Of a stretch of DNA of 64,000 bases, positions 43,528 through 64,000 are shown in pieces. Location: the NCBI GenBank assembly GCA_019096195.1, contig JAGTXK010000050.1, positions 620,001 through 684,000 on the forward strand, read 5' to 3'. Every line of letters starts with the position of its first letter. The stretch's first letter is position 1. A program made the position numbers and the translations under genes. The DNA comes from Boletus sp. NGJ. Taxonomy: Eukaryota; Basidiomycota; Agaricomycetes; Boletales; Boletaceae. Under the pieces are notes generated by a model. The model did no database searches, was not told the DNA's origin, and worked only from the letters and a program-made list of their open reading frames with translations.

Positions 43528-45068
43528 TCAAGCAGTGCTTTCTACCTGGATCCCCTGCTCGTTTTGAGTCGCCTGCAGTGCCTCAGCCACATTGCCACCC
43601 CTCCGTTGCGCTTGTGCGACGACTTCGATCACGCTTGCGAGTCCCGCTTTCCATGCGAGTAGCCGCTTCTCGAGAGCTTCCCATTGCTCTCGCTCAAACT
43701 TGCGTGCAGAGGACCTGTGCACGTGGAGATTTTGTGTCGTTTGGGAGAGTTTACCAGAGATGAGACCGACTCGAATGACTGATACAGATCACACGACCGT
43801 CAATGTGTCTTCCTTTGGTGGGATATCATTTTGTCTTACCATCTATGGCCCACTTCTCGACTTGCGATGTATCGATTTGCAATGTTGATGCAATCGTCGA
43901 GTAAGGAAGATCCCGTCCAATATAGTCAAATGCGAGCGAGGTGAATGCCAGGAGGCGTATTTTGCGTTCAAGCTGAGATCTTTCGAGTTCTGCAAACAAC
44001 CGGGATTTCCCCCCCTTTTTTTTCAGCGAAACGGACACGTTGTATGAGAAACGTACGATAGATTTCGAAAACGGCGGTATGGCCATCCGCCCATGCCTGG
44101 AACTCGGGCAAACCGTTTCTCAGGAATATCTGGAGAAGGGGGAAGAGTTCGTGGTCTCGCACAGCGATGATAGGATCGAGGTTGTACAATGTATCAAAGT
44201 CAAAGACAGTTGGTATGCGAAGGGCAGCAACAATCGTGTCGACAGCGGCCGAGCGACCTTGTGGGGAGGAGGACGGGAGAGCGTGTACGAGTAAGATTTG
44301 ATATTCGTAGGCACTATCCCTAAAAAGCGAAGGTAGTGAGCACGTAGGAATACACCATAAAAAGAACACACACGCTTTACCAGCTCGTGTAAGCGTATCA
44401 ATGATGGTTTTTAGGAATTGGCTCTTCTCTTCGTCGGAGATATGCCATTCGTTCAGCCATCGTTGGACGTCAGATTTTGTCATCGCGAGAACTTCAAGTT
44501 CGCCACCGGCTGCCGCAAGCTGTAGAAGGGTAGTGTATATTGGTAGCCGCAACGCGGAGGACCGTGTGGCGGCATTGAACAAGTTGGATAATCTGATCAA
44601 GCTCAGTAGAGCGCACGTAGGATAATCATAGAGAAACTCACATGCGATGTTTGACTGATGTGTTGTTGGAGGGTGAAGACGAGATTACATTGAGCAGATA
44701 GACTACATGCTGCCTCGTTTCAGACGAATCGACCTGCCACAGAGTGAACAGATGTGAATACAAGAGATTGAAGAAACCTTCAATCTCTGTTGCAATGTGA
44801 GAAGGGAGTGCGAGCGATCGCGACCGCACATACCGTGGTCAGTGCCCTTACCCATGCTTTTGGTGTTTTTCAGCACAAGTTCAAACGCTGTCCGTCGAGG
44901 GTCCTCATCAAGTGGCGCGTTCCCGGTCTTGACGACGTCTTGGAGTGACTGCAAGAGCACGGTGCGGTCCTCGTCAGGAATTCCCCGGGCGGTGTACTCG
45001 AGCAGTTCTTGCAGCTGCTCCTCGAACGTTCCCTCTGCAAACGCGGAGACCGAGTCTGACGACGACAT
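43528..45068 (-). CDS. Translation initiation factor eIF3 subunit m
   Basis: PCI-domain subunit of eIF3. ATG 45068 gives MSSSDSVSAFAEGTFEEQLQ. Later blocks are EIEGFFNLLYSHLFTLWQVD, NLFNAATRSSALRLPIYTTL, DPIIAVRDHELFPLLQIFL, ERKIRLLAFTSLAFDYIGRD and the PCI winged helix LPYSTIASTLQIDTSQVEKW. After an intron around 43770-43840 comes VIRVGLISGKLSQTTQNLHV, then REQWEALEKRLLAWKAGLAS. The ISGKLSQ..Q..HVHR block separates eIF3m from CSN7 and proteasome lid subunits. About six introns. It is the last intact host gene before the transposon-rich region. Confidence 0.9.
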
Positions 45069-45244
45069 TTCTTACACTTGTGCTTTTGAATTTCTCAAAT
45101 CAAAGTTTGAATGGTATATGAGTGATAACAAGTGCAAACACAGCCACGTGGTAATCGAGCCTCTGACTAAGCGTGTGTCCGAGATGGAATCACGAGCCGG
45201 TGGCTCGCTGTTCGGCCCAAACAGGGGGCGAGATAGCGAATACT

Positions 45245-45350
45245 TACTTCGTGCCTTCGGCACTGTGCTTGGATTTGGTAGCTGTAATTTTTGGGGGTAA
45301 AGATGTAAGTCCCCAGTACTTTGTACCTTTGGCATTGCACTTGGTTTTGG
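45245..45350 (+). repeat. Short tandem duplication at the edge of the repeat-rich region
   Basis: Two 34-bp copies, 45245-45278 and 45317-45350, 72 bp apart; the downstream motif GGGGGTAAAGATGT / TTTTGGTAAAGATGT is also repeated. The copies differ at about 7 of 34 sites. Five of these changes read C-to-T or G-to-A going from copy 1 to copy 2, including loss of two CpG sites. Confidence 0.6.
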
Positions 45351-45594
45351 GCCATTGGCCCAAGGGAGACTGATAATATTTACCCTACTAATTTTTTTTG
45401 GTAAAGATGTTCATTCTACAGTAGTTTTGAAAAGCTGTGTTGAAATTATGTACTACTATACACATTGGAGAGTGTATGTAATAGTATCTTTACAGTAATC
45501 ATCATCACTAACAATAAAACAATAGCCCACACTCAACCCTGATGAGTTTTATTCTTATAATGGAGTTGAACATCAGGCCATAGTAGAACAGCAG

Positions 45595-45692
45595 ATATAG
45601 TATACATACCATAGCAGCATCAAAAGATTTTATCAATTGTTAGATCTCTTACTATCATTTTATAACCCAAAACATCATTTGATAGAATACTA
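45595..45692 (+). repeat. Dispersed repeat, copy 1
   Basis: About 98 bp beginning ATATAGTATACATACCAT and containing TCAATTGTTAGATCTCTTA and ATCATTTG.TAG.ATACTA. It is repeated in the same orientation at 60389-60486 with about 10 differences, mostly transitions. The flanks are unrelated. Probably a fragment of a non-autonomous element. Confidence 0.75.
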
Positions 45693-45857
45693 TTAAGCTC
45701 ACTAAGATAATCTTAGATTCTTCAAATGAATTTTGAATTTTTATACTTATATTTTTATGAATATGTGAGTGGGCAGATGTAGTAATATTTTGTTGTAGTT
45801 GCAGTAAGTATCTATATCTGAGGAAATGAACATACTGTGCCTTTGCTGGGTTTATTA

Positions 45858-46073
45858 CAGTGGCTCAAAAAACTGTCTGCATGTTTGGTCATTTTTCACT
45901 AAACACATTATTCCCCAATAACCCCTAACCCTTAACCTAACATATAGGTGTATGAAATAAAGCACTGACCCTTGGCTTTCTATCCATCAAGGTTTTAAGA
46001 CATATGAATAAGAATTGATGAACTGGCAGCCATTTCAAAACAATGACTCATTCAGAGAGTTTTTTGACTCTAA
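45858..46073 (+). repeat. Left terminal inverted repeat of Tc1 element 1
   Basis: 216 bp, inverted relative to 54514-54726, with good identity throughout (for example AAGCACTGACCCTTGGCTTT matches on the other strand). Its own two ends carry inverted copies of one box: outer GGCTCAAAAAACTGTCTG and inner AGAGAGTTTTTTGACTC. Confidence 0.9.
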
Positions 46074-46221
46074 GTTTTGATTACATATATTGGACCCTAG
46101 CATGCTGTAATATGATTACATACATTTGGTAAGGCTTCTATTATGTCACCATTATGTAACTGAGTGTCAGACAACACATATAAACCCCATCATTCCATGT
46201 TTATTTTTCCATCATCACCAT

Positions 46222-46581
46222 TGAAACGAACTCGGATATTTTCCCTTTATTTACGTAGTTAGCTACCACTTAGACGATCCCACGAAGACATTACGTAGTT
46301 ACCATTATACCTAGGCCTTACGCCTAGACCATACGTCACTCACTAGTCAGCCTACGTCACAACCCCTATACCCATAGAACAGGCTAGACCCCACTACGTC
46401 ACCGTACGTCATACGGAACATTCTAGTAGGTTCCATGACCGGCCCTAAGCTGGTCCGTGCCCCCAGTAGTTAGTATATAAGTAGCGCTACAACACCTGTA
46501 TTAGCTAATCTTGGAATTCCTTTTCTCTCTCTCGAATATCGCGCTTGCGACTCTTGAGATATTAAGGTCTTCTTCCTTTCA
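46222..46581 (+). repeat. 5' LTR
   Basis: 360 bp from TGAAACGAACTCGG to CCTTTCA. It includes a TATATAA box at 46474-46480, about 32 bp upstream of TAATCTTGGAATT (46506-46518), which is the probable RNA start because the primer site is complementary to it. Confidence 0.92.
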
Positions 46582-46594
46582 AATTCCAAGATTA
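46582..46594 (+). other. Primer-binding site of self-priming type
   Basis: AATTCCAAGATTA directly follows the 5' LTR. It is the exact reverse complement of 46506-46518 inside the LTR, just downstream of the TATA box. This matches the self-primed group of Ty3/gypsy elements (Tf1/sushi type), in which the 5' end of the RNA primes reverse transcription instead of a tRNA. Confidence 0.78.
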
Positions 46595-47439
46595 TCCCTC
46601 GTCCCCGGGCTCTTCGCCTCTGGACATTTCCTCCCCTCTACCTCCACTGTTTTTGCCTAGTCGAGCAAACTTTTTGCTCGCTAGTACCGCTCTCGCCCTT
46701 CGATCCAACACTCCCCGTATCTGACCCTCAGAGGAACCGAGGGATCCCCGTTAGCGATAGACGTAACATCCGGACCTATACGGCGGTTGTCAGCGCAGGG
46801 ATCGTCCTCTACTGCAGGGAACGAATAAGGAGTTCGGGTCTCACTTCTCCCTCCTCCCCCATCCACTTCCGAACGCGTGGGCTCGTCGCCGCCGTTCACC
46901 CATATACCGGACCTCAGGTTTAGAGGGACCCGCTCGTACACGTGACGTACGCGAGTAAAGCACTCGGCGAAACGCTTTGTCATACGCTCGTCCGGCGTTC
47001 ACAAATAAGGATAACGTTGCTACCGGGCATAGTGCACTAGCCCCGCTTCTTGGGTGGTTGTCGACCCAAGCGTACGCTGGTCCTACGATAGTGGACTCGG
47101 GTTCGCGTGATCACCCGTGACGTCACGTAGGTGCGATAACTCGATTTATCTCGACTTTCGAGCGTGCACCACCTTCCTGTAGTAAGGAAGTTATCCTCCG
47201 GTTCCATACACCGCCCGACTCTCCCCCCTCCTGACGGTGCGCGGTCTTTCCCGCCGTTATTCTTTTTACAGCCCTGTCTTCAGACGGCCCCCGAACCTAC
47301 AACGTATTCAGACGCCGCTACGTCTGGGTACACCCCGACTATTCTTTCGTCATCCACACGACCTTGACGACCTACTCCACGCACGACCACCGCCACAGAA
47401 CCATCACCCGCCTAGCTCGTCTCGCCGGCTTAAGACGCG

Positions 47440-48900
47440 ATGAGCCACGTACCCCCGCAGCAGCCATACTCACGCCCCCCGTCCGTAGCAGCCGCCCCGG
47501 GTTCCTTCAGGGACCTGGCCAACCGGGCCGCCGCGCAAGGGCTCCCCACCCTTCAACTTATACAGCCGACCCCGCAGTCGATCCCTGCGCCGCTACCGCA
47601 GGCCCCTCCGTCCCCCACGCGCCAACAGGACATAGAGCAGTACCTCCTGCACCAGTCCGTCCTGAGGTACAACGTGTGGCGCCAAGCGTTCGCGGCAGAT
47701 CCCGTAGCGGCTGGACCGCCCCCACCAATCGCGCTCCCCAGGGTGGACCCTCCCGTCCCATCTCCCGCTCCTCTCCCGGAGCCCACTCCCCGAGCTCAGG
47801 TATCCGAGTCCACATCCCTTCTCCCGGGAGGACACCCCGACTGGTCCCACCGCAGGGCCCAGCTCCCTCGCGCCCGCTCCCCACGCCCCCGCAGCCGAGC
47901 TCCCCATCCCACTCGAATTCACCTGGGATCCCTCGGCCCGCCGCACGTGGCTTCCCCCCGACTTCCCCGAGGATCGGGAAGAGCCTGGCCGCTAAGCCAG
48001 AGCATTACGATGGCAACAAGGAGAAGTTCGTTCAGTGGTGGAGGACCGTCACCCTCTACCTGAACGGCTTCGAAAGCTACGCCGACCGATCGGCAGAAAA
48101 TACTCATCACGCTGTCGTACATGCGAGGCGATAACGCCGCCGGGCGATTCTCAGACCTCCTCGTCGAAGGAGACGCATACGCCGCCGTCAACTTTGAGTT
48201 TTTCGTGGAGAAACTCAAGAAGACGTTCCAACCCGCCGGCCTCGTGCGCCTGGCGGAACAGAAACTGTTCTCCCTTCGCCAAGGGAAGGACAGCGTCGAA
48301 GACTACTTCACGCGCCTGTTCCAGCTGGCCATCGAGGCCAAATTCGACGTCAGGATAAACGGGAGGACGATCGTCAACCAGATCCGGCACCAGGCCCGGA
48401 ACGAACTGGTTGAGTACGTCGAGAGGTACAAGCCGGACCTCATCGACTCCACCGACGTCCGCGAGTGGGAGACCGCCCTGGTACGGGCAGAGGAGGTCCT
48501 CGGCGCCATCGCAGAGCGCAAGAAGGCCTCCAACGTCTTCGCCACCGGCCCCTACCTACAACCCGCGTTTCATCCCGCGTCCCCGCTCGTACGCACCTCC
48601 CGCTGCACCCCCGCCTACCCGCCCGCCCCCCTCGGCGCCCGTCGCGCGCCCGCACCCTCAGACCACCGGGGTCTTCCCCGGACAAGGCGCTCCCATGGAG
48701 CTCGACAAGGCACGCGCAGCTGGACTGTGCCGAAAATGCAGGAAGCCCTGGCCCTGCGCCGATCACCCGCCCCGCCCTCGCCCGCAAGCGAGGAGCATCA
48801 CGGTAAACGGTCAGGAAGTTTCCCCGGACATGTTTGCTACGATACGAGCCATGATGGACTCAGCGGAGAGCCCCGCAAGTAGAACCAGTAGTTTACGCCC
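47440..48900 (+). pseudogene. gag-like region of the LTR element (fossil)
   Basis: Pro/Arg-rich N-terminal sequence followed by a retrotransposon gag block (FFVEKLKKTFQPAG, RLAEQKLFSLRQGKDSVEDY, FTRLFQLAIEAKF) and a short Cys-containing tail (CRKCRKPWPCADH), which resembles a reduced zinc knuckle. Degraded. Confidence 0.75.
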
Positions 48901-49040
48901 CCGATGTACAAAGTGACTCGGGTTTTCAGCCTGTACAGTAGACACCAGTCGACCTGCTGTACAACATAAGTCATTGCTGAATGTAACATGTTTTCCGTCC
49001 TAAGCATTGACGAGACTGAAGACGAGGAAACGAACAACGC

Positions 49041-52000
49041 GTGAACCTCCCGGGCACTCCGCCCGTTAAGAAAATGACCATCATGCCGCGAAAGGTGAAG
49101 TTCGCGCCGTCCGTAAAGCGAGACGACGGCCCGAACGACGCCGACACCATCCCGCGCAAACACCCAAAGGAAGCACGAAAGGGAGAGACGTCCTCTCGTT
49201 CCTGGCTGAACACGTTGGACCCCTGGTCCATACGTTGGATGAAGGCCCAAGTGGAGAACACGGATGTTGACCGCAGCATCCACCACCTGAAGTCCTTCGT
49301 TCACGACAGCCGGACGATCGAAGTGTCTCGGGACCTCGTGCAGGACCTCCGAAGACTTTCCGACGAAGACGCGTACTGGGTCCTCCATGACCTACAGCAC
49401 GCCCCGAAATTCCGGAAAGCATCCCCTCGATCCACGAAGCGAAACTCGCTGGAGATCCCGGTGACGCTAACCCTCCCGAACCGACAGACCGCCAACGTCA
49501 AGGCACTGATCGATTCAGGCTGCACCGGATCGTCCATCCACGAGAAGTTCGTGGCTGAAAAGGGGGTAAAGACGCACTCCCTCCCCCGCCCCCTCACCGT
49601 CTACAACGCCGATGGCACGCCGAACGCCGGAGGCAAAGTAGAGAAATTCGTGATCCTCGAAGCTCCAGGTGAACGACCACAGGGAACAGTTGGCCCTCGC
49701 AGTAACCAACCTCGGGCCGAACACCGTGTTCCTCGGACACGACTGGCTGAAGATGCACAACCCAGCCATCAACTGGAAAACCGGGAGAATTTCCTTTCAG
49801 ATGCAAGAGGGGATCACGCCGTGGGCAGTGTAGACGAGGAGGAAGACGAGATGGACGTAGACTACAGGCCGTCCCAAGGCGACAGACTATTCGAACTCGA
49901 TGTAGTAGAGTACATGCGAAATCGAAACGTCGCCACGGAGGTGGCCATCAAGGACTACGTCCCAGAAAAAGAAGAGAGACCTTCGAGGAAGCCGCCCCGA
50001 AGTACGTCCACGAGTATAAGGACGTCTTCGACAAAGAAAGCTTCGATGCGCTACCCCCGAGACGCCCTTGGGATCACGCCATCGAGCTCCTCCCCGGGAA
50101 CCATGAGGTAGACTGCAAGGTCTATCCCTCTCAATCCCGGGCGAGCAGAAGGAACTGGACTCCTTCCTCGAGGAGAATCTCAAGTCCGGGAGGATACGAC
50201 CCTCCAAGTCACCCTTCGCATCGGCCTTCTTCTTCATCAAGAAGAAAGACGGACGCCTCCGCCCCGTGCAAGACTACCGCAAGCTGAACGCGGTGACAAG
50301 ACGCAACCGCTACCCGCTCCCGCTCATAAGCGAACTGGTCGACAAGCTCAAGTCGGCCAAGTACTACACCAAGTTCGACGTGAGATGGGGGTACAACAAC
50401 GTACGGATGGCAGAAGGCGACGAGTGGAAGGCCGCCTTCCGAGCAAACCGCGGGCTATTCGAGCCCCTCGTGATGTTCTTCGGGCTCACCAATTCACCAG
50501 CGACGTTTCAGACGATGATGAACGCGCTGTTTAGACACTTGGTGGACCGAGGCGTAGTGGTCGTCTACATAGACGATATCATGATATTCACGAGAGACAC
50601 TCGAAGAGCACCGCAAGGTAGTACGCGAGGTGCTACAAATCCTCCGCGACGCACACCTCTACCTGCGTCACGACAAATGCGACTTTGAGGTCCAAGAGAC
50701 CGAGTTCCTCGGGCTCATCGTCGCACAAGACAAGGTGAAGATGGACGAGAAGAAGGTGGAAGCCATCAAGAGCTGGCCAACGTCCCCACCTCGAAGAAAA
50801 CACTGCAGAGGATTCCTCGGGTTCCTCAACTTCTACCGACGGTTCGTCAAGAACTTCGCCATGATCGCGCGCCCCCTCAACGCGCTCACGTCGGTGAAGA
50901 AGAGACTTCGAGTGGACGACGGCCTGCCAAGCGGCCTTCCAAACCCTCAAGGACACCATCTCCTCCGCCCCGGCGCTCGCCATGCCCACCGACACCGACC
51001 CCTACCGCATCGAAACCGACGGCTCGGGCATTGGCATCGGCGCCATCCTCTCCCAAAAGCACGACGGCACATGGCACCCCGTCGCCTTCATCTCCCGTTC
51101 CCTCAACGACGCCGAGAGGAACTACCACGCCGCTGACCTCGAGATGTTAGCCATCATGTTCGCCCTCAACGAGTGGCGACAATATCTCCTCGAGGCAGCC
51201 CACCCGATCGAGATCTGGACGGACCACAAGAACCTCGAGTTCTTCCGGAAACCCCAGGATCTCACCCGCCGTCAGGCCCGCTGGCAACAGGTCCTACAGG
51301 AATACCATGTGGTGATCAGCCACCGCCCTGGCAAAACCAACCCCGCGGACCCTCTGTCCAGGAGGCCAGACTTTGAAAAGGGGGTGACATCCGACAACAC
51401 CGCGCAGACACTACTGCCTGACGCCCTTTTTTCGCCCCCACCGTCACCTACCTCCACGACGGTCTCCCTCAAAGCCGTCGCACCGGCGAGCACGCTCTCA
51501 AGGATCACAAAGCTACAGTACAAACTAGAGCAGTTCGCCAAGGAAGGCTTGGAGAAAGGAGAACTCCCCCTGGAGCCGCAAAGAAGGACTTGTCCACTGG
51601 AAGACGCTCGTCTACGTGCCGAACGACGCGAAACTCAGAGAGGACATCCTCATCGCGAACCATGATCATCCGATCGCTGGCCACCCCGGCATCCGGCGCA
51701 CTCGCGATTTGATCATGAGCGAATACTATTGGCCCTCGCTTCGACGCGACGTGGAGACTTACGTCAAAGGGTGTGATACGTGCCAAAAGGTAAAAGCCAA
51801 AACCTCGGCCATCAACACACCGCTCCACCCGAATGAGATCCCATCTTCCCCCTGGGAAATCATCTCCGTCGACCTGATCGGCCCCCTCCCCCAATCAGAT
51901 GGCAAGAACGCCATCCTGGTTGTCGTCGATCGTTTCTCCAAGATGATCCACCTAGCACCGGTTATGGACACCATAACGTCCCAAGGGGTCGCAACAATCT

Positions 52001-53104
52001 TCCGCGACCAGATCTTCAAGCTCCACGGTGTCCCACGCAAGGTGATCTCCGACAGAGGAACGCAATTCGTGTCGTCGTTCATGCGCGACCTTTACTCCCT
52101 CCTCGGCATCCAAGCCAACCCGTCTACCGCTTACCACCCCCAGACCGACGGGCAGACGGAGCGCATCAACCGAGAGGTGGAGAAATACCTGCGCATCTAC
52201 GTCAACCATCGCCAAACCGACTGGGCCGAATGGCTACCCCTAGCCGAGTTCGCCCACAACTCGCAGACCACCAGCGCAACCGGCGTCTCCCCCTTCCTGC
52301 TCAACTACGGGCAACAGCCGCTCATACCGAACAAGCGAGTGGAAGTGAGAAACGAATCCGCCGCCTCCTTCGCCGAAACAATGAAAACCCACCACAACAC
52401 GGCCAAGGACGCGCTGGAAAAAGCGGCAGAAGCGATGAAGAAGGCGCACGACAAACGTGCATCCCCCGCCGTCGAATACACGGTCGGCCAGCAGGTCCTA
52501 CTCGAAGGAACCCACGTTCGGACCGATCGCCCGACCAAGAAGTTCGACGACAAACGACACGGCCCGTTCAAGGTGAAGCGTAAGATCGGCGAGGCCTCCT
52601 ACGAGCTAGGACCTCCCGCGCACGTGGAAAGGGATTCACCCCGTATTCCACGAGTCGCTTCTTACGCCCTACCACCCGGGCACATCCCCCTCCCAGACGA
52701 AACCGAAACCGCCACCCCCGGTTATCGTCCAGCAACAAGAAGAGTACGAAGTGGAGCACGTCGCCGACTCACGTAAGCGACGCGGCAGAACCGAGTACCT
52801 AGTACAGTGGAAAGGGTACCCCCGCGAGGAACGCACATGGGAACCGAAAAGGAACGTCTCAAACGCCCCACAGGCGATCGAGAAGTTCCACCGAGAGAAC
52901 CCCACCGCCATCCGCACCCTTGCCGACGGCGAGTGCGACTGCCCAACCTGCGCGTTCCCCGGAACCCCCCTATTCGACGACCCGTCCTTCCGCTCGTACG
53001 CGGCCTCCCTAAACCGCCTCCCCGACCAACTCTTCGAGATCCCCGCACCCCATAGCGACGTCAACCTCACCGGTATCATCATCGACCGGGAGTTCGATGG
53101 CTAG
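49041..53104 (+). pseudogene. pol-like region of the LTR element (fossil)
   Basis: In order: aspartic protease (KALIDSGCTGSS, near 49500), reverse transcriptase ([20 protein letters not shown] near 50270; the catalytic VYIDDIMIF near 50570), RNase H (IETDGSGIGIGAILSQKHD near 51010), integrase (GHPGIRRTRDLIMSEYYWPS, ISVDLIGPLP, AYHPQTDGQTERINREVEKY) and chromodomain (RGRTEYLVQWKGYPREERTW near 52790). All are in the normal Ty3/gypsy order. Degraded. Confidence 0.9.
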
Positions 53105-53115
53105 AAAGGGGGTAA

Positions 53116-53479
53116 TGAAACGAACTCGGACGTTTTCGCCTTTATTTACGTAGTTAGCTAACACTTGACGACCCCACGAACGCACTTACGTAGTTACCAT
53201 TATGCCTAGACCTTACGTCTAGACCATACGTCACACACTAGTCAGCCTACGTCACAACCCCATACCCATAGAACAGGCTAGACCCCACTACGTCACCGTA
53301 CGTCGTACGGAACATTCTAGTAGGTTCCACGACCGGCCCTAAGCTGGTCCGTGCTCACGCCAGTAGTTAGTATATAAGTAGCGCCACAACACCTGTATTA
53401 GCTCAATCTTGGAATTCCTTTTCTCTCCCTCGAATATCGCGCTTGCGACTCTCGGGATATTAAGGTCTTTTCCCTTTCA
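53116..53479 (+). repeat. 3' LTR
   Basis: 364 bp from TGAAACGAACTCGG to CCTTTCA, preceded by the purine tract AGAAAGGGGG. It aligns with the 5' LTR along its length; the differences are scattered substitutions and a few 1-3 bp indels. Confidence 0.92.
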
Positions 53480-53482
53480 ACC

Positions 53483-54499
53483 ATGAAACCCATTTCCATC
53501 TCTCAAAGAAACAATATCATCTCTCCCTCCTCTCATGGGCTTTCCTCTAGAAAAATCTCTGCCCAAACTGGCCTAGGGAAGTCTACAGTATGCCAAGTGC
53601 TTCAGGAACTCCAGCCAGAGAAGACTAGGCTTCTTGGTGGCTGTCCTTCCAAGCTTACCTCTACCAATAAAAGAGCTATTGTCCAGCAAATTATTACTAG
53701 CAAGGCCAGAAATGCTGTTCATGCTGCCCAATACATCAATACCATTATTGATACCCCTGTCTGTCCTCAGACTGTTAGAAATACTCTCAAGGAAGCCTCC
53801 TTAAAGGCTGTGGTAAAGAAGAAAAAGCCATTGCTTTTTAGTGGTCACAAGAAAAGAAGATTAGCCTTTGCTCTCAAGTACCAGCATTGGACTGTGGAGG
53901 ACTGGAAGAGAGTTATATGGTCAGATGAGACCAAGATCAATAGGATTGGGTCAGATGGGCAAGAGTATGTGTGGAAAAAGAAAGGAGAGGGGCTAATTGC
54001 TAGAGAGGTCCAAGGCACAGTCAAGTTTGGAGGAGGTTCACTGATGGTATGGGGCTGCATAGGGTGGAATGGAGTGGGGATTTTGAGTGAGGTGGAGGGG
54101 AGAATGGATGCTGAACAGTATGTGGCCATATTGGAGCAGAGGTTGCTGCAAAGCATGGAGGAATCTGGAATTCCAGAAGATGACATTATCTTTCAACAAA
54201 ATAATGATCCCAAGCATACCTCTAAAAGAGCCCAAAGATGGTTTGAAGAGCAAGGAATCAAGCTTCTGGACTGGCCTGCACAATCTCCAGACCTTAATCC
54301 CATTAAACATACTTGGAATCACCTCAAGAGATGCCTCTCAGGTTATGAAAATGCTCCTACAGATGTTCATCAATTGTGGAAAAGAGTAGTGGAGCAGTGG
54401 GGAAAGATTGATGAGGAACAGTGTCAGAAATGGATAGAAAGTATGCCTAGAAGGATTGAAGCAGTTATCAAGGCCAAAGGAGCTCATACCAAGTACTAG
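53483..54499 (+). pseudogene. Tc1 transposase 1, open but catalytically dead (DD34E)
   Basis: A 338-residue open frame MKPISISQRNNIISPSSHGL...KAKGAHTKY. The N-terminal helix-turn-helix (SSRKISAQTGLGKSTVCQVL) and catalytic core are recognisable: VIWSDETKINRIGSDGQEYV with the first Asp (residue 148), then QQNNDPKHTS and WPAQSPDLNPIKHTW. In the family these read QDNDPKH and NPIEH, with 34 residues between Asp and Glu. Here residue 240 is Asn (AAT for GAT) and residue 275 is Lys (AAA for GAA), both G-to-A changes at the right spacing. The frame is full length, so it was silenced by substitution rather than truncation. Its ATG lies inside the target duplication made by the LTR element. Confidence 0.93.
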
Positions 54500-54513
54500 A
54501 TACCTAGATAAAT

Positions 54514-54726
54514 TTAGAGTCAAAAAACTGTCCAAATGAGTTATTGTTTTGAAATGGCTGCCAGTTCATCAATTCCTATTCATGTCTTAAAACCTTGATG
54601 GATAGAAAGCCAAGGGTCAGTGCTTTATTTATACACCTATATGTTAGGGTAAGGGTTAGGGGTTATTGGGGAATAACACGTTTAGTGAAAAATGACCAAA
54701 CATGCAGACAGTTTTTTGAGCCACTA
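54514..54726 (-). repeat. Right terminal inverted repeat of Tc1 element 1
   Basis: 213 bp, starting 14 bp after the transposase stop. Inner box TTAGAGTCAAAAAACTGTCC and outer box GACAGTTTTTTGAGCCACTA are inverted copies of each other, as in the left repeat. Confidence 0.9.
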
Positions 54727-54825
54727 TATCTCACAGTGTCTCATAGTGTCTTATGGTATTCTCATAGTACTTCTGTAGTGGTCATAGTGATGCCATAGTA
54801 TACATAGTGCTTCTATAGTGGCTTA
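54727..54825 (+). repeat. Degenerate CATAGTG-type simple repeat
   Basis: Irregular copies of CATAGTG/TCATAGT directly after Tc1 element 1, ending before 54826. The same unit on the opposite strand (CACTATGA) makes the tracts at 55425-55600 and 60610-60760. Confidence 0.7.
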
Positions 54826-55121
54826 GCAATCCTAATCCTAATCCAATTTCAAGCCAATTCAAATTTCAAATTCAATCAAATATTAATTCTATTAATTCTA
54901 ATTCTACCAGTTCCAATCCCAATCCTAACAATTTACAAAGTGAAGTGTTGACTTTATGTAATAAGTAGAGAAGGATAAAATTGAGAAACAAGAGGGTGTG
55001 GGAAAGTTTTTGAAGTCTAGCTTGTTTATATAAGAATGGTGGCACAAACATTGGCAAACAATGTCCGCTTTTTTAACACTGAGTGTAGGAAAATGGACTT
55101 GGATATTTTTTTTGAGTGTAG

Positions 55122-55390
55122 GTCTACACTTTTGGTACACTTTGTGGCTACACTTTTACTACACTTTGGTGCACATTTTTGGTACATTTTTGGTACACTT
55201 TGTTTGCTACACTGTACTACACCCTGCTACTATTTTGTTTGCTTTTTTTACTACACTTTGTTTGCTACACTTTTGCTACATTTGGTGCGCATTTTTGCTA
55301 CACTATATTACACTCTTTCCTACACTTTTTGTACAACATTTGACTACACCTTTGACTACACCTTTGACTACACTTTTTGTATACTTTTAA
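55122..55390 (+). repeat. Degenerate CTACACTTT/GGTACACTTT minisatellite
   Basis: About 270 bp of irregular units such as CTACACTTTTG, GGTACACTTTG and the tail ACTACACCTTTG three times (55343-55371). T-rich, no CpG. It translates as low-complexity Phe/Leu/Thr strings and is not a gene. Confidence 0.8.
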
Positions 55391-55424
55391 TTTAGGATTA
55401 GGATTAGGATTAGCTTAAAATTAC

Positions 55425-55600
55425 TACTATAACTATGACTACTATGAATGTACTATGAATGCTATGAAATGCTATGGTACTATGACACTATGACACTATG
55501 AATACTATGAATACACTTTCAATACTATGACACTATAAACACTATGAACACTATGAGTTATCTATGAAACTACTATGACACTATGAGCACTATGATGAAA
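55425..55600 (+). repeat. Degenerate ACTATGA simple repeat
   Basis: Irregular tandem units ACTATGACACT, ACTATGAATACT and ACTATGAACACT. It is the opposite strand of the tract at 54727-54825 and the same strand as 60610-60760. Confidence 0.75.
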
Positions 55601-55616
55601 TCCTGTATTTACTGAT

Positions 55617-57219
55617 ATACTCCAAGTGCTAAGTCGAAAGCAATGAGCTCTAGGTCAAAAACAGACAGCAAGATGATAGAATGGTGCAATGGAGAAACTG
55701 AATTTTGACATTACTGAGTTGAAAGCAATGGGTTCTGGATCAAAAGTGGTGAATGATGACACAATAGACATGATGCAGGTGGAGGAAGGCATGCATTGCA
55801 GAATCAATTTTGACATTGCTGAAGTTATTAGTATAATTTTCCATTTGTATGGGCTGACTTCAACCACTCTTTTCCTGGAGGCTATCAAAGAGATTAGTAC
55901 TATATATTCTTTTGGCATGAGAATACACACAATAGACTCTGCCTCTGTATTGTATGCCTGTGGTTACTTGTCAGTCAATAACAGACTGAAAATTTTAATT
56001 TGACCAATACACCATGTGCTGTTCTTTCATGAGCATTCACCAGTATTCCTCAAACTCATCCTTTGTGCCTGGTCCATCCTTGTTTACTTGTTTTAACCAA
56101 CAATGTGCACAAAGATTCCTATAGATCATGGAGACAAAATGAAAAGCCCTATAAAATGGCTGATCTAAAAAGACTAAGAATACAGACATATGAGGATTGT
56201 TAGCAACAATCACAGCTTTTCTGTGGTATTTTTGAATGTATGTGGACCATGCTATAATAAAAATTTGGTGTCAGTGATTTGGAATGACTAGAAGTATGCA
56301 CCACTTTGTCAACTACAACTGTCAGTGGTCAGATCAATAAGATATGTGCATTGGATCAAGGTGCTACAGTACATACTGTAATCTTTAGTCACATCAGCTT
56401 GAGAAACATAGGTGCTATCAGCAATAGGAACCAATTCTGTATTGAAAACAGTTATCTTGGCATCCAGGAGTGTTCTAGACCTCTTGAGCTGGGGTGATGG
56501 TTTGAGCACAATGGACTGTGATCAGATGGGTTAGAACCAGGCTGCAGGAACTCGGACAAGCAAGAGAAGTGCTACTAGTGGGCCAGGAAAGTCTGGGGTG
56601 AGCATAAATCAATACATTTCGTTGTATTTAAGTGGTACCTCAAGGATGAATTCATTTTGGAGGAATTCCCTAATCATGTCTCTGGTGGACATTGTGAGTG
56701 GAATGAAAGTGTTATAATGGACACCGACAATGCTATAAGACATGACACTTGGTAGTATTTATGATCACACTTGATTTTTAAGTTCTATCTAGCTATATGC
56801 ATAGGTCATGCAGACAGCTTTAAATCAGTATGCATCACTGGCACTCCAAAATCATATCACTATATAAATGGACACACCCAGACATAAACATTTCATTGGA
56901 TTTATGACCAGTCATGTGCAGATACAAATAAACTGAACTGAGAATAGCAAGTTTTCACTGGGGCTCAGAATTCTGTCTTGCATCCACATGATTGTATCAA
57001 AAGACAGAACACACAGAGTGCATCCAAGTACTGAAAGAAATCATGTCAGTGAGAGCAGCAGCAGTAGTGAGTCATTAAACAATATCTTGCATCAATGCCA
57101 ATTTTCAAGAGGTCAGCATCTTGTTTCTTAGGGGTGAAAGCCTTCATTAGTTTAAATTTCAAGCAGCAATCATTTTTGAGCAACCACAGAAAAAATCTAC
57201 AGAATGTCATTTAGAATAC
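55617..57219. other. CpG-poor relic region, no gene identified
   Basis: AT-rich sequence with almost no CpG. A plus frame 55689-56003 (104 residues, MEKLNFDITELKAMGSGSKV) and a minus frame 56309-56509 (TLLDAKITVFNTELVPIAD) are the most protein-like pieces, but neither matches a family I know. Probably decayed transposon sequence. Confidence 0.4.
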
Positions 57220-57221
57220 TA

Positions 57222-57440
57222 TAGTGACTCCCAAAACTGTTCCAATACCTAATCCTGATGTAGTGCATGAAGCGCACTGCAAACACCCATGGGACTTTCA
57301 CTTGGCTTTGGTGGGACAAATAATAGTACATACCCTTGGCTACCTATGGGCGCTTGGATCATGTGATTTTATCCAGAGGAAGTGGAGATATGGCTATTTT
57401 AAAACAGCAACTACATTGGAACAGTTTTGGGACTTTTGAT
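57222..57440 (+). repeat. Left terminal inverted repeat of Tc1 element 2
   Basis: 219 bp. Outer box CTCCCAAAACTGTTCCAAT near the tip; the inner end carries the inverted copy ATTGGAACAGTTTTGGGAC, an 18-base perfect match. The same layout is seen in Tc1 element 1. Confidence 0.9.
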
Positions 57441-57573
57441 GTGAGCATTAGAATCTTAATGATATAAGGGGATAATTGCTGTTGTTTGGTGGTACAAACA
57501 AAGATATACATATAAATATCATGTCTGAGTCTAAAAATGTTCCCACACTTCTTGACTCTTAACCACTACCATC

Positions 57574-58587
57574 ATGCAATCTCTCTCTGCCACTCAAAAG
57601 AACACTATCCTCTCTCAACTTGATTCTGGCCATTTCATCCACTCTATTGCCTCTAGTACAGGTGTTGGCATTGCTACCATCTCTAGGCTTTGTTCCAAGG
57701 AGCATTCTGACCTTCAAAAGTCTGCTGGAGGCCATCTATCAAAGCTTTCCTCTGTTAATATTCATCATGCTGTTTGCCTTATCTCCAGTAATAAGGTAGA
57801 GAATGCTGTTCAGGTCACCAAAGCTCTCTCCACTATCACCAACCAGCCTCTCCATCCTAATACAGTTCATTGTCATTTGAAAAAGATTGATATGAAAGTT
57901 GTAGTCAAGTCCAAACACCCACTACTTTCTGCCAAACATCGCAAGGCTCGGTTGGACATTGCTTATGCTTATAAGGACTGGACTCTAGAGGGGAAGCAGA
58001 TGGAATGGTCTGATGAGAATAAAATCAATCATCTTGGGTCAGATGGTCACAAATGGGCATGGAAAAAGCCAGGAGAGGGGCTTAGTAATAGATTAGTTGA
58101 GGGGACTTTGAAGTTTGAAGGGAATTCTTTAATGTTGTGGGGCTGTATGGCTTGGGATGGGGTTGGCTATGCAACCAAGATTGATGGTAGGATGGATGGT
58201 GATCTCTACCTTCAAATTTTGAAGGATGAACTCCAGGATTCCTTGGAGTTTTATGATCTGAATCCTTCTGATGTCATCTTTCAACAAGGTAATGACCCCA
58301 AGCATACTTGCAAAAAGGTCAAGGAGTGGCTGGAAGAGCAGGAATTTAGGACCATGGTATGGCCTGCACAGTCTCCTGACCTCAATCCCATAGAACATAT
58401 CTGGCTTCACCTCAAAAGAAAGCTGGCAGACTATGAGGAGCCTCCTAAGGGAATAGAGGAGTTGTGAAGAAGAACTCAGGAGAAATGGAATGAAATACCA
58501 GCTGAGGTGTGTCAGGGATTGATTGAAAGCATGCCTAGGAGGGTTCAGGCAGTGCTTAAAGTCAAAGGAGGATATACCAAGTACTGA
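57574..58587 (+). pseudogene. Tc1 transposase 2, one nonsense codon and one lost catalytic Asp
   Basis: A 337-codon frame from MQSLSATQKNTILSQLDSGH to KGGYTKY with one in-frame TGA at 58465-58467, where related proteins (element 1: QLWKRV) have Trp, so TGG-to-TGA. The core retains the first Asp (MEWSDENKINHLGSDG) and the Glu of NPIEHIW (residue 274). The second Asp is Gly at residue 239 (QQGNDPKH, GGT for GAT). Two independent lesions mean it is inactive. Confidence 0.9.
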
Positions 58588-58611
58588 TATATACCAAATA
58601 CCCTTATGATA

Positions 58612-58830
58612 ATCAAAAGTTCCAAAACTGTTCCAATGTAGTTGCTGTTTTAAAATAGCCATATCTCCACTTCCTCTGGATAAAATCACATGATCCAAGC
58701 GCCCATAGGTAGCCAAGGGTATGTACTATTATTTGTCCCACCAAAGCCAAGTGAAAGTTCCACGGGTGTTTGCAGTGCACTTCATGCACTACATTAGGAT
58801 TAGGTATTGGAATAGTTTTGGGAGTCACTG
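58612..58830 (-). repeat. Right terminal inverted repeat of Tc1 element 2
   Basis: 219 bp. Inner box TCCAAAACTGTTCCAATG and outer box ATTGGAATAGTTTTGGGAG are inverted copies. Differences from the left repeat are few and mostly transitions. Confidence 0.9.
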
Positions 58831-58832
58831 TA

Positions 58833-60388
58833 TTCCTACTTCAAGTTGCCCAGCATAGTTCAAAAACTTACATTCCACAGTCCTCTTATGCACATGTCAC
58901 TCAAGAAAAGATGCAGTGTGAGGGTAGGTGCAGACAGGGGGCTCCTGACATTCAATGAGATTCCTTTGAAGGACAATGACATCATTCTGTAAGCACATCA
59001 TCTGAGTTGATAAGATAGTAGTTAGTTGAAGTCAGAAGAAGTGAATGGAGTGTTGCAAGACTTGCCTGACATTGAGTGCAGCACAGTTGTGAGCAATTGG
59101 ACAATATTGACATGAGATGGATACATGAATTGATTTGTGCAAGTTGTGTTCAAGATGGCTTATCTCATCTACCTAATTGGGCAGGCATTGAAGTCAATGA
59201 ACAGGAGGGGGCTATAGGAGAGTCAGCTATAATGGGCCACATGGACAGTAGTAGAGAACTTATACAATTACAATGTTAATGTGTTTATTATCCCAAGAAA
59301 GAAAGAAAGAGAAAAAATAAGTTGTTCCTGGTGTGAGGTTGCTAAGATGGATATAAAGTGTAGTAAAGTGGAAAAATGGTGGTAAAAAGTGAGTAAAGTT
59401 AAGCAGGACGAAAAACAAACTGTTTGTTTTATTTGTTTTATATTTGTTGGGCCACCTCCTCACATCATATATTGGTGAGGTATTATTGACATTCATATCA
59501 GGAGGATGGGGTGCCTTCTACTAAGGCCAGCAGCTGTCTTTTCAAGACTTTGAGTGTCCAACTTGTTCAGCCCAGAAAAAGAAGGGCTTTAGGCTTGCAA
59601 GCTGGGTGCTCACTGTGGAATTATTTAATGTCAGGTTTAAATGCTCACTCACAAGTCTCAGGTTTAATTGATCCTGGGTCAAATGTATCTGCCACTCTCA
59701 ATCCACCAATAAACAGCAGTTGTGTGGTACTAGTATTAGGTTACTTGATGCCTATCTGTGTATACTTTTCATATCTTTTACTACCTGATTACATGGCTCA
59801 TCTAACTCCTTGCAATGCTCATAGCCCACCAGCACACACCTATTGGTTCTGACATGTGATGATCAACTTGAAGTTGATTCATTAACACACAACCCAACAT
59901 TGTGTCCATTCAGGCTTCAAGTCTGCCCAAGAATGGTGAGTCACCTTTGGGCTTTGACCACCACCTCTGCTGAGCAATAGCAGCTACATTCACTGCACTG
60001 GCTGCACCTCTAGCAGACTTGCTCTGACTTTAATTTGGAGCCCAACCTATTTGAGCAGCCCTTCCAAGTCTTCTGAGTTCTACCCCTCTTTTTTTTTTCC
60101 AGCATGCTTTCTTCCAAGTCTACCCCTCGCATTAATTTTTTTTCAGCACACTTCTGCATTCTATCAAGATTCAACCAGCCCAGCCTCCAACCACTCTTTC
60201 TGTGCCTCCCAATCCAACAGACCCCCTTGGTGTCTTTCATCTCTTACCCCAAGAACAACACTGCTAGTCACTCCTTCCTAACCACTGTCCTCCAAGTCTC
60301 TTCTCCGTCACTGCCTTTGCCTCTTTATCCAATCAAAGTCACAACTGGAATTTTATGCATCGGTTCTGACACACAATGGTCTTGATAC
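58833..60388. other. CpG-poor relic region, no gene identified
   Basis: AT-rich decayed sequence. The longest plus frame (59511-59852) contains GLIDPGSNVSATLNPP, faintly like a retropepsin active-site loop, but nothing around it supports that. No repeats bounding a recognisable element. Confidence 0.4.
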
Positions 60389-60486
60389 ATATAGTATACA
60401 TACCATGGCAGCATCAAAATATTTTATCAATTGTTAGATCTCTTATTATCAGATTATGACCCAAAAAATCATTTGGTAGGATACTA
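60389..60486 (+). repeat. Dispersed repeat, copy 2
   Basis: Same orientation and length as 45595-45692. It is followed after about 120 bp by the ACTATGA-type tract. Confidence 0.75.
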
Positions 60487-60609
60487 CATACATCAACACA
60501 CATGTGGAACACAGCCCTTCACACTAAGTTGCACATTGCCATGGCCCTTAATTGATCCAGTTGTGCTTAGTTAGCATGGTAACTGGAATCTGGGATTCTC
60601 TGAGAGACC

Positions 60610-60760
60610 TACTGTACTATGAGAATACTATGAGACACTATGAGAATACTATGGCCACACTATGAATAGACTATGAGATACTGTCATAGTACTGTCAAAC
60701 CACTATCCAGTTGGACCCTCACTATGAGCACTATGTTACTGTCCAGTACTGTCCAGCACT
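60610..60760 (+). repeat. Degenerate ACTATGAGA simple repeat
   Basis: Units ACTATGAGAAT, ACTATGAGACACT and ACTGTCCAGT. Same repeat class as 55425-55600. Confidence 0.65.
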
Positions 60761-61331
60761 GGATAGTTAGTCCTGTTTTTACCCTCAAGGAGGTTGCTGG
60801 TTTAATTGGCCATGTCACCTTTTGCCACACCAAAGATGATCTACCACTTTGTATGTTTTCATTGATTGCCATTTTATACTACCACAGTACCTATGCATAT
60901 ATGTGCACAGTGGTGCATATCAAGAATATACATAGCTGAGCAAAATAAAGCATGTGTTTGCATTTCTAAGCAGATGTGGGACCATGCATCAGAGCACAGT
61001 AGAACACAGAAACAAGCATATTGAGAATGTATAAAGCTGAATAGAATCAAGCATGTATTTGCATTTCTAAGCAGACACAAGATCACATCGAAGCACAGCA
61101 GAATGCAGATATGAGCACATGAGAAGTATTGATTTGGATGTATGCTGAGCCACACAGGGAACATACTTGAGCAGCTGACAACACAGCTGAGCATGCTACC
61201 TTATATAAATCTTGTGATTGTAGTCTCATGTTATGCTTGTTTATTCCTACTTCTATTCATTTTGTACAAACTATCTACTCACACATCTGGGCATATGCCA
61301 ACTAATTTAAGCACAGTAAGTTTTTGCAGGG
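60761..61331. other. CpG-poor relic region upstream of the XPG-like pseudogene
   Basis: Holds a weak internal duplication (GCATGTGTTTGCATTTCTAAGCAGA near 60950 and GCATGTATTTGCATTTCTAAGCAGA near 61050; about 100 bp apart). The lost first exon of the nuclease could lie here but I cannot read it. Confidence 0.4.
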
Positions 61332-62407
61332 CTTGAGCTCTGCACTCTTTTTTTCCACCTCACAACTCTTCTTGCTATTTCCTCACATGCAATCTTTGTG
61401 TTTGATGGTCCCCACTGGCCACTTATGAAGCAAGAAAAGCACAATTGGAAAAGGTCTTATTGGTTGGTCATTGGCTTCCAGTTATTGTTGGGTTTATTTG
61501 GATTGAGATGATATGAGGTATGAATATGGTGGTGGCTTGTGATTACTCTGGATGTACTAGTAACTTATTTGCTAGGCTCCTGGAGAAGCTAAAGCTAAAT
61601 TGGCCACCCTAAACCAACATGGGCTTGTTGATGTTGTGTTAATGACTGACAATAATGCGCTCATTTTTGATGCTGAGTGTGTTGTCCACCAGTAAGCTTA
61701 TGGCGGTTTTCTTTTTCTCTATATATTTCTCAAACCCAACTGTTTTGAGCAACCCAGACTGTCACCAACACTTTGATAATGTCAAGATACATTACATATA
61801 TTTAGTTGCTGGCTATCTGGCACTTCCATGTGCAGAGTGTATTCTGGTTGCACTTCTCAGTGGTGGTGACATCCATGTAGATGTCTTTGTTCTTGATTAC
61901 AGATACAAACAGTGGTACTGACTTGTTTGGATGGAGAATGGTGGCTATGGCTTCAGCATCACAATTGCCTGCCAACTGGCACAGTATGGGCTTGGCAGGG
62001 CTTTGTTGGATGCTGTCTCAATGAAGCAAGACTTACCACTTGCTGACTCCCTCACTAGCTGGCAGATTAGACTCTGAGATGTGCTGAGAAATGACCCCAA
62101 AGGATGGCTTGGGCGAAAGTATGGCAAGCTTGTGAACTTGATCAACAAGCTGTTTTCTGACCATAACATACTCCAATATTATGCTAACCCCTTGACAACC
62201 TTCTCTGCCCAGTCCAACACATCCAATAGTTCAATCTCTGAGCCAAGCTTGTTTCCACATTCTCTTAAGTCATGTCAACCATGCATTGAAGCACTCACAG
62301 CCTTTTGTACAGTATGTAGCATTTTGGCTGGAGAAATGAAGGCCTTGTGGCAAAGATGCACTCCATCATATAGGAAGGTGCATGCCTTTGATTGCTGTAT
62401 GGAGTGA
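61332..62407 (+). pseudogene. XPG/FEN1-like PIN-domain nuclease, decayed
   Basis: Plus-strand blocks in family order: LELCTLFFHLTTLLAI, FVFDGPHWPLMKQEKHNWKR, then, after a probable intron ending CTAG at 61570, APGEAKAKLATLNQHGLVDV and VLMTDNNALIFDAECVVHQ. After another probable intron (61692-61762) comes DNVKIHYIY...CILVALLSGGDIH, and finally GLGRALLDAVS and GWLGRKYGKLVNL. In active XPG-I domains the first loop is GEAEAE and the second TDDSDA; here Glu has become Lys and Asp has become Asn, all G-to-A type. There is also a frame change near 61975 and a TGA at about 62075. These PIN-like nucleases occur in many copies in some Agaricomycetes (from memory), possibly carried by transposons. Confidence 0.72.
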
Positions 62408-62410
62408 GTA

Positions 62411-63152
62411 GAACCAGTAGAGTTGGACAATACAATTCACACTGACACTGTAATACTACTCATGCTAATCTGCATCAAACTTGTTTTGTGCAGTCAGAAG
62501 CTACCACCTGAATAGAATTAATTCTGCCACTTGCAGCAGTTAGAATCTTTCAATACTCTAGGGCCTAACAACACTTAGTATGATCCACCACCTCTGAACT
62601 TTTCAGAATATTTTACTGTGAGAAATAAATGTTTTTTTCCAATACATGCTCTGATACTGTCTATAAGTACATACAGTCATCCACCATCAAATGCATCACC
62701 ACTAGCAAGTGTGTCAATTGGCTTTTCTGTCAGAATTCTCAACTTTCTTTGGCATGACAAGTTCAGAATAAGTACTTCTTATGCCTGAGCATGTACTGTC
62801 ACACAGAAATTCCATTGCACCAGGCAGATAGGATAGTTATTACTAATAAACTTATACATAATTGCTTTTCCCTTATGTTTGCCATGCAGGTATTGAAACA
62901 GCCTCTCTATAATACTGGTACATGCTTTAGGGTCTAATGAGTGTGTCTCTCATATTTTTAATGTGGACCATATGTTTATAGTCTGCCATGACAATGCCAG
63001 TGAAGAGTCTCTTTGTATGTCTATCTAACATATCTATTATCTAATCTTATGTTTATCAGGTTTGATAAACCCATTATGGTAGGCATAGAATGGAGAGAAA
63101 GTTGGTCATTCAGAGTGGACTGCAAGAGACAATGTCACTTTTTTCATCCCAT
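62411..63152. other. CpG-poor relic region
   Basis: AT-rich, no coding signal recognised. It separates the nuclease relic from the pogo-like transposase. Confidence 0.4.
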
Positions 63153-64000
63153 AGGAAATGGCTGGACATGCCAAATTTATCTTACAGAAGAAACAAGAGA
63201 TCTCACAGGCCCAGGAAGATGCTTTGGCAAGGGCAATCCAACTCACAGATGGAAAAGCTAAACTAAAGAATAACAGAAGAAGTCTACAAGGAATCTACAA
63301 TTAAGTGTAGATAAAATGGTGGAAGAAGTGGAAAGAAGTTGTAGTGAGCCCAGACACTATTTGACATTGACTAAAGGGAGGGCACAGCCACCATATAGAC
63401 AGTAGTGCATGGTTCACCAATGAAGAAGAAGAATCTGTCATGAAATACTGCCTTGAGCTTGCTACACAAGGCTTTCCATTCAACCACAAAAAACTCAAAC
63501 TCCATGTTGATTGTCTTTGAGAGCTCAACTAGGAGATGCCTTTTCAGAGACTAATGTTGGGAAAAACTGGACCAACCAGTTCATTTCATGCCATAGCAAT
63601 CAATTAGGATGGTATTGGAGTAGCTCACTTGACACTGCAAGAGGACATGCTGTCAACAAGAACACCAACCAAGCATGATATCAGCTACTCTGAAGCATAA
63701 TTGATGGAGAAAAGATTGACCCTAATTGTATATGGGCTGCAGATGAGACTGAATTCCAGCCAGGTGGTGGACTCAAAGACCATGTTATTGGGGCTACAAA
63801 CCAAAAGCTTCAATATCAGCAATATGACAGAAACTGGGAGAATATCACTGTTGTGGTAACAATTTGTGCAGATGGCGAGGACATCTCACTGACTGTTATC
63901 TACAAGGGGCAGGCATTCTCAACTAACTGGCATCAAGACAATAGTCTACAAGCATCGTGAATAGTATTCAACATCAAACAAGACTACAAACTCACCTCTG
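63153..64000 (+). pseudogene. pogo-like (DDE_1) transposase, broken, continues past the window
   Basis: Pieces in more than one frame: MAGHAKFILQKKQEISQAQE (DNA-binding start), TNEEESVMKYCLELATQGFP, VGKNWTNQF, QLGWYWSSSLDTARGHAVN, IWAADETEFQPGGGLKDHVI, and NITVVVTICADGEDISLTVI followed by YKGQAF. These match the fungal DDE_1/CENP-B-like transposase order, with the first catalytic Asp in ADETEF. Several stops and frame changes interrupt it before 63700; the final 260 bp read cleanly apart from a TGA near 63958. The C-terminal half is outside the window. Confidence 0.82.

Follow-up and report, generated by a model that had tools for sequence, protein, structure and literature searches.

A stretch of 64,000 nucleotides from the basidiomycete Boletus sp. 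NGJ (contig JAGTXK010000050.1, forward-strand positions 620,001 to 684,000; hereafter the window, with coordinates counted from its first base) contains a long terminal repeat (LTR) retrotransposon, 46222-53479, nested within a Tc1-type DNA transposon, 45856-54728. The LTR element lies at the start codon of the transposase gene. Its 5-bp target duplication is ACCAT, present at 46217-46221 and again at 53480-53484, and the transposase frame behind the element begins with an intact ATG at 53483-53485. The features of the locus are collected in Table 1.

Table 1. Features of the nested insertion, in window coordinates
Feature	Coordinates	Strand	Basis
Left terminal inverted repeat of Tc1-type transposon, 222 bp	45856..46077	+	inverted-repeat pairs I1-I3; ends of other copies
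Tc1 5' region severed from gene: native TATA-like motif and short upstream ATG frame	46078..46221	+	alignment with 36 other copies
Left copy of target duplication, ACCAT	46217..46221	+	junction reading; empty sites
5' LTR, 360 bp, TGAAAC...TTTCA	46222..46581	+	direct reading, repeat pairs
Ty3/gypsy chromodomain internal region, frames interrupted	47235..53104	+	Pfam matches to separate open pieces
3' LTR, 364 bp, TATATAAG at 53371	53116..53479	+	direct reading, repeat pairs
Right copy of ACCAT; its AT with G53485 forms the start codon	53480..53484	+	junction reading; other Tc1 copies
Tc1-type transposase frame, 338 amino acids, DDE_3 and HTH_Tnp_Tc3_2; D148 kept, D240N, E275K	53483..54499	+	domain matches, alignments
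Right terminal inverted repeat of Tc1-type transposon, 219 bp	54510..54728	+	inverted-repeat pairs; ends of other copies

The two nested elements

The internal region of the LTR element has, in order, matches to a gag-like domain, a weakly matching aspartyl protease, reverse transcriptase, RNase H, an integrase zinc finger and core, and a chromodomain. The diagnostic families (PF00078, PF17917/PF17919, PF17921, PF00665 and PF00385) occur in this order on separate frame pieces. With its TG...CA LTR ends and 5-bp target duplication, the element belongs to the chromodomain Ty3/gypsy LTR retrotransposons, or chromoviruses. The window element departs from other members in that its frames are interrupted and its LTRs differ by 19 substitutions and fall into different side-specific groups (described below).

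The host is a member of the Tc1 group (DD34E; nearest structure SB100X, 5cr4), with terminal inverted repeats of approximately 220 bp and a DDE transposase that has a Tc1-type helix-turn-helix. TA, the target duplication of the group, adjoins the ends of most other copies of this transposon in the genome. The window copy is unlike the group in being split by the LTR element and in carrying D240N and E275K in its transposase.

Junctions, target duplication and empty sites

Both junctions were read directly. The left flank ends in ACCAT and the LTR begins with TGAAAC at 46222 (ATCACCAT abuts TGAAACGAAC at 46221/46222). The 3' LTR terminates in TTTCA at 53479 and is followed at once by Tc1 sequence (CCCTTTCA abuts ACCATGAAACCC at 53479/53480). 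The 16-mer across the right junction between the LTR and ACCATGAAA has a single exact occurrence in the genome, at the window locus. With 1-2 mismatches, 26 further sites were found, compared with 13 for the reversed control at up to 2 mismatches.

The genome searched comprises 32.8 Mb in 141 contigs, and genes of the window include the Uds1 domain, which is known from fungi. Exact copies of the uninterrupted sequence ATCACCATGAAACC number 34, and the total rises to 78 when up to one mismatch is allowed; the reversed pattern gives 3. When the right part of the Tc1 transposon was used as a query, 40 of 390 candidates were scored, namely the window copy and 39 others. The comparison set drawn from both genome searches consists of 36 distinct other copies (L006 and L035 being one copy). 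All 36 are continuous over the insertion site. The start codon is ATG in 33 and ATA in three, and ACCAT stands at the site in 27; the remaining nine include seven with TTGCC before the ATG. An empty Tc1 is approximately 1.61 kb long, and the two flanks in the window together with one duplication add up to 1611 bp, near the length of uninterrupted copies, to which the window copy is 96-98% identical. The first-pass annotation had placed the LTR element exactly at the transposase start codon and had proposed that the ACCAT duplication restores the ATG at 53483. Both proposals are borne out, the former by the two junctions and the 36 uninterrupted copies, and the latter by the direct reading of both ACCAT copies and of the ATG. 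The empty copy of about 1.6 kb that it anticipated exists.

Through a 5-base staggered cut, an integrase leaves one copy of the five target bases on each side of the insert. If this duplication begins no later than the A of an ATG, the start codon and the downstream frame are intact on the right side. The start codon was kept here because the staggered-cut duplication begins at or before its A, and its preservation is therefore automatic, with no special device needed. Overlap with the ATG is one of five positions in approximately 1600, which is uncommon yet not remarkable among many insertions. Among the titles and abstract beginnings returned by a literature search, none described an LTR element inserted across the start codon of a Tc1 gene.

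The transposase frame and its new upstream region

The transposase frame matches PF13358 (E 7.7e-17) and PF01498 (E 1.4e-10), and its residues 113-338 align with the Sleeping Beauty transposase SB100X (PDB 5cr4, E 6.8e-58). N240 lies opposite the D of the second SB100X motif and K275 opposite the SB100X E, with the 34 residues typical of the group separating positions 240 and 275. The aligned D and E of SB100X are catalytic residues. The window copy thus has D148, N240 and K275 in place of the DD34E triad. D240N and E275K are both G>A changes, and each is absent from all 36 other copies. Because two of the three catalytic residues are gone, the protein should be unable to cut DNA, as predicted from the chemistry of DDE transposases; judged by its sequence, the window Tc1 is a dead member of the group, belonging to it by descent and not as a working transposon. 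The 338-amino-acid frame is found in 13 of the 36 other copies, 11 of which retain WSDE, FQQD and LNPIE, nine of these with ATG. Open frames are thus frequent in this young Tc1 family. The coding substitutions of the window copy relative to the family majority number 12, eight nonsynonymous and four synonymous, a ratio that gives no sign of selective retention of the frame. Eleven of the 12 are G>A or C>T. CpG decay and a CpA-directed repeat-induced pattern were considered for the G>A changes and rejected, as the 13 private changes stand in mixed contexts.

In the aligned copies, the empty Tc1 site has a native TATA-like motif approximately 40 bp upstream of the start codon. The 5' region of the family also contains an upstream ATG with a short frame whose stop overlaps the main start (as ATGA where that start is ATG). 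In the window this upstream frame occupies 46190-46221 and would continue at 53485 in an empty site; it is possibly a translation control in the Tc1 family, one that the insertion would have removed. The insertion puts the native TATA-like motif and the upstream ATG frame 7.26 kb from the gene. In their place stands the 3' LTR, with TATATAAG at 53371, which is 112 bp upstream of the ATG. A putative transcription start approximately 30 bp past this motif would lie about 82 bp before the ATG. There is no ATG between the TATA motif at 53371 and the ATG at 53483, and the base at -3 of the start codon is A. Expression of the transposase from the LTR, as a chimeric LTR-transposase messenger RNA (mRNA), is therefore possible on positional grounds.

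The first-pass annotation went further on each of these points. It described the frame as complete, which holds for the 338 open codons but not for a working protein, given the loss of the triad through D240N and E275K. It put an LTR TATA box and a start site about 75 bp upstream; the TATA motif does lie just upstream, and the start would be nearer 82 bp. Its statement that the promoter was swapped is correct in that an LTR with a TATA motif now stands just upstream. It is overstated as to a promoter in use, since it is a positional inference, the exact junction occurs once, and the frame shows no sign of retention (8:4).

Side-specific LTR groups in three families

The comparison of LTRs covered the two window LTRs (46222-46581 and 53116-53479) and loci L039-L068, L071-L089, L091-L120 and L125-L127. 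The LTRs of the window element differ from each other at 19 of 358 aligned sites. The surrounding Tc1 carries 13 private substitutions over 1616 sites; at that rate, LTRs that were alike at insertion should differ at about 5.8 sites (P 1e-5), or at 13.7 if all 31 Tc1 differences from the majority are counted (P 0.10). Taken alone, the excess is suggestive only.

Most elements compared, in three LTR families, have LTRs that resemble same-side LTRs of other loci more closely than they resemble each other. Such a comparison sets a single partner against the best of many and so is biased towards the others; the best opposite-side match elsewhere was used as a control. Family 1, to which the window element belongs, gave 40 LTR matches: 28 form 14 pairs, three come from three further elements, five are unpaired, and four, from a truncated element and a contig-end element, were left out. 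In 12 of the 14 paired elements, each LTR has a same-side match at another locus that is closer than its own partner; in one element this holds for one side, and in one for neither. The same-side match also beats the opposite-side control on both sides in nine of the 14. The three further elements have a closer same-side match on one side (two elements) or on neither (one). An exact 5-bp duplication is present in 11 of the 14, the window element included. Conventional reciprocal LTR pairs do exist, at C102 (62385-69630) and at C97, and the side-specific pattern is therefore not universal.

In family 2, five elements were examined among 42 matches, and in all five the 5' LTRs are near-identical to each other, as are the 3' LTRs, whereas dozens of changes, along with insertions and deletions (indels), separate one side from the other. 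C81 and C74 share variants at both ends. The 5' flanks of these elements differ, and the duplication is readable on both sides for two of them, matching in each (C89, GAGCG; C74, CTAGC). In family 3, closer same-side matches were found on both sides in all 15 paired elements (30 of the 40 listed LTRs), although the differences are small, the comparison took in just a part of the LTR, and the best opposite-side LTR from elsewhere beats one same-side match in two of the 15.

The similarity among loci changes toward the outer ends. Compared with five other loci of its subgroup, the window element shows 5-18 differences in the 1800 columns that precede the 3' end (interior and most of the LTR) and 5-11 in the next 60 columns, which form the outer end; the first bases of the 5' LTRs vary likewise. 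Four 3' LTRs that form a second subgroup (C133, C112, C124 and C75) have zero differences, outer end included, and fit this picture poorly. The Tc1 copies also vary more near their ends, with up to 9.4% per 20 columns compared with mostly 0-5% inside (the first bin, which holds flank, was left out). A repeat-wide cause, either assembly or indel-prone repeat ends, must therefore be considered.

A 255-amino-acid open piece around RNase H is found at five loci of the window LTR family, the window included. This suggests that the frame interruptions are probably common to separate insertions.

Causes of the side-specific pattern

In standard reverse transcription both LTRs are made from one template, and the U3 of the 5' LTR cannot be handed on. 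In-register gene conversion between loci may underlie the side-specific groups; from the alignments, it is about as probable as all other causes taken together, and it would account for both the side-specific similarity and the locus-specific outer ends. Repeat copies mixed up during assembly or polishing would give nearly the same picture as conversion, and this is a substantial, if lesser, possibility. It is doubtful that a non-canonical mode of copying is responsible, in which whole units would keep two different LTRs, each side inherited from the same side only. Such copying, itself improbable, would bypass the standard strand transfer that makes both LTRs from one template. The small remainder falls to other causes. 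Gap-filling with one identical repeat was rejected, as the copies differ at 5-18 of the 1800 columns adjoining the 3' end. Conversion of resident elements by incomplete complementary DNA could account for the boundary in the 3' LTR; it fails for the boundary close to the outer end of the 5' LTR, because the TATA motif lies at LTR position ~256.

Conversion between LTRs has been reported in other genomes. A study of Microbotryum (PMC10502011) treats low 5'-5' divergence between copies combined with high 5'-3' divergence within copies as the mark of conversion, and there such points are a small minority. By that test the copies described here would land in the conversion corner, where they would represent most elements compared. 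PMC7251063 reports that in 25% of nested pairs (1042 of 4126) the LTRs of the nested element match each other less well than those of the original one, which was attributed to gene conversion. Whatever the cause, the LTR divergence of the window element should not be used for dating. If the side-specific groups are real and not an effect of assembly, LTR divergence cannot date insertions in the Boletus sp. NGJ genome, and the usual distinction between recent bursts and old copies fails in it.

Origin and significance of the insertion

The locus is very probably a neutral nested insertion that has no evolved function. Both junctions and the empty sites show that a chromodomain Ty3/gypsy element integrated at ACCAT by a 5-bp staggered cut over the Tc1 start codon, presumably made by the element's own integrase. 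The geometry of such a cut duplicates the five bases, so that the right side reads ACCATG and the downstream frame is untouched. The native TATA region now lies 7.26 kb upstream, and the TATA motif and ATG-free leader of the 3' LTR abut the frame. A chimeric mRNA could then arise, encoding a protein that carries the residues described above and is predicted to be unable to cut DNA. The locus illustrates cleanly how staggered-cut integration spares a downstream frame, and it serves as a reminder that open frames need not encode working enzymes. In two studies of nested transposable elements in plants (PMC6911290, PMC7251063), a younger LTR element likewise lies within an older element; the Boletus locus differs in having a DNA transposon as the host and in the overlap of the insertion site with the start codon of that host.

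Two observations weigh against an insertion of no consequence. The full-length open frame, together with the ATG-free leader and the A at -3, makes efficient translation from the LTR conceivable, and a catalytically dead transposase may still bind DNA and so could act as a repressor. A promoter swap of this kind, in which the 3' LTR drives a DNA-binding, non-cutting protein that represses Tc1 relatives, would draw on the TATA motif at 53371, the favourable leader and the retained helix-turn-helix domain. It is nevertheless unlikely, for the exact junction occurs at a single locus, the substitutions give no sign of selection on the frame, and the catalytic triad is lost. That the insertion was targeted, through a preference for Tc1-type elements or for DNA just past a TATA box, is very improbable. 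The Tc1 TATA-like motif does lie about 40 bp upstream of the site, and a search of the flanks of window-family elements with the transposase (18 elements, 29 flanks, not both for each element) placed two of the 18, those of the window and C20, inside Tc1-type transposase genes. This proportion is weak evidence in a transposon-rich genome and comes from a set limited to elements similar to the window LTR. The C20 element (C20:279917-287170; L049, L041) splits its host gene near codon 186, with a TTCTT duplication, and not at the start; the host transposase is a relative 43-53% identical to that of the window, where the insertion is at codon 1. A second Tc1-type gene split in this way is as expected if placement is by chance. 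In addition, the start codon is interrupted in none of the 36 other Tc1 copies, and the duplications that were read have no evident common motif.

It is exceedingly improbable that the junctions are an artefact of mis-joined repeats in the assembly. The in-register similarity of LTRs across the genome could reflect some mixing of repeats, but from a mis-join one would not expect a 5-bp duplication that matches on both sides, LTR ends that are exactly TG...CA, and empty sites of the same context, and other family elements have duplications of their own (11 exact of 14, counting that of the window). Two further readings were rejected. The LTR element is not cargo of the Tc1 transposon, as other members of its family lie in other flanks and the exact composite junction occurs once. 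Nor are the other family elements segmental duplications of the window element, as their flanks and duplications differ.

Neighbouring features

A second Tc1-type transposon, of another family, lies at 57220-58832 and has inverted repeats of 221 bp. Its transposase frame has FQQG where the second catalytic D is expected. It was considered as an empty-site control for the same Tc1 and rejected, with 67% identity over 595 bp only. A 98-bp direct repeat (91% identical; 45595-45692 and 60389-60486) brackets the stretch that contains both transposons. The guanine plus cytosine content drops from approximately 52% to approximately 40% at 45 kb (45000-64000, the GC-rich LTR element excepted), marking the edge of a transposon-rich region.

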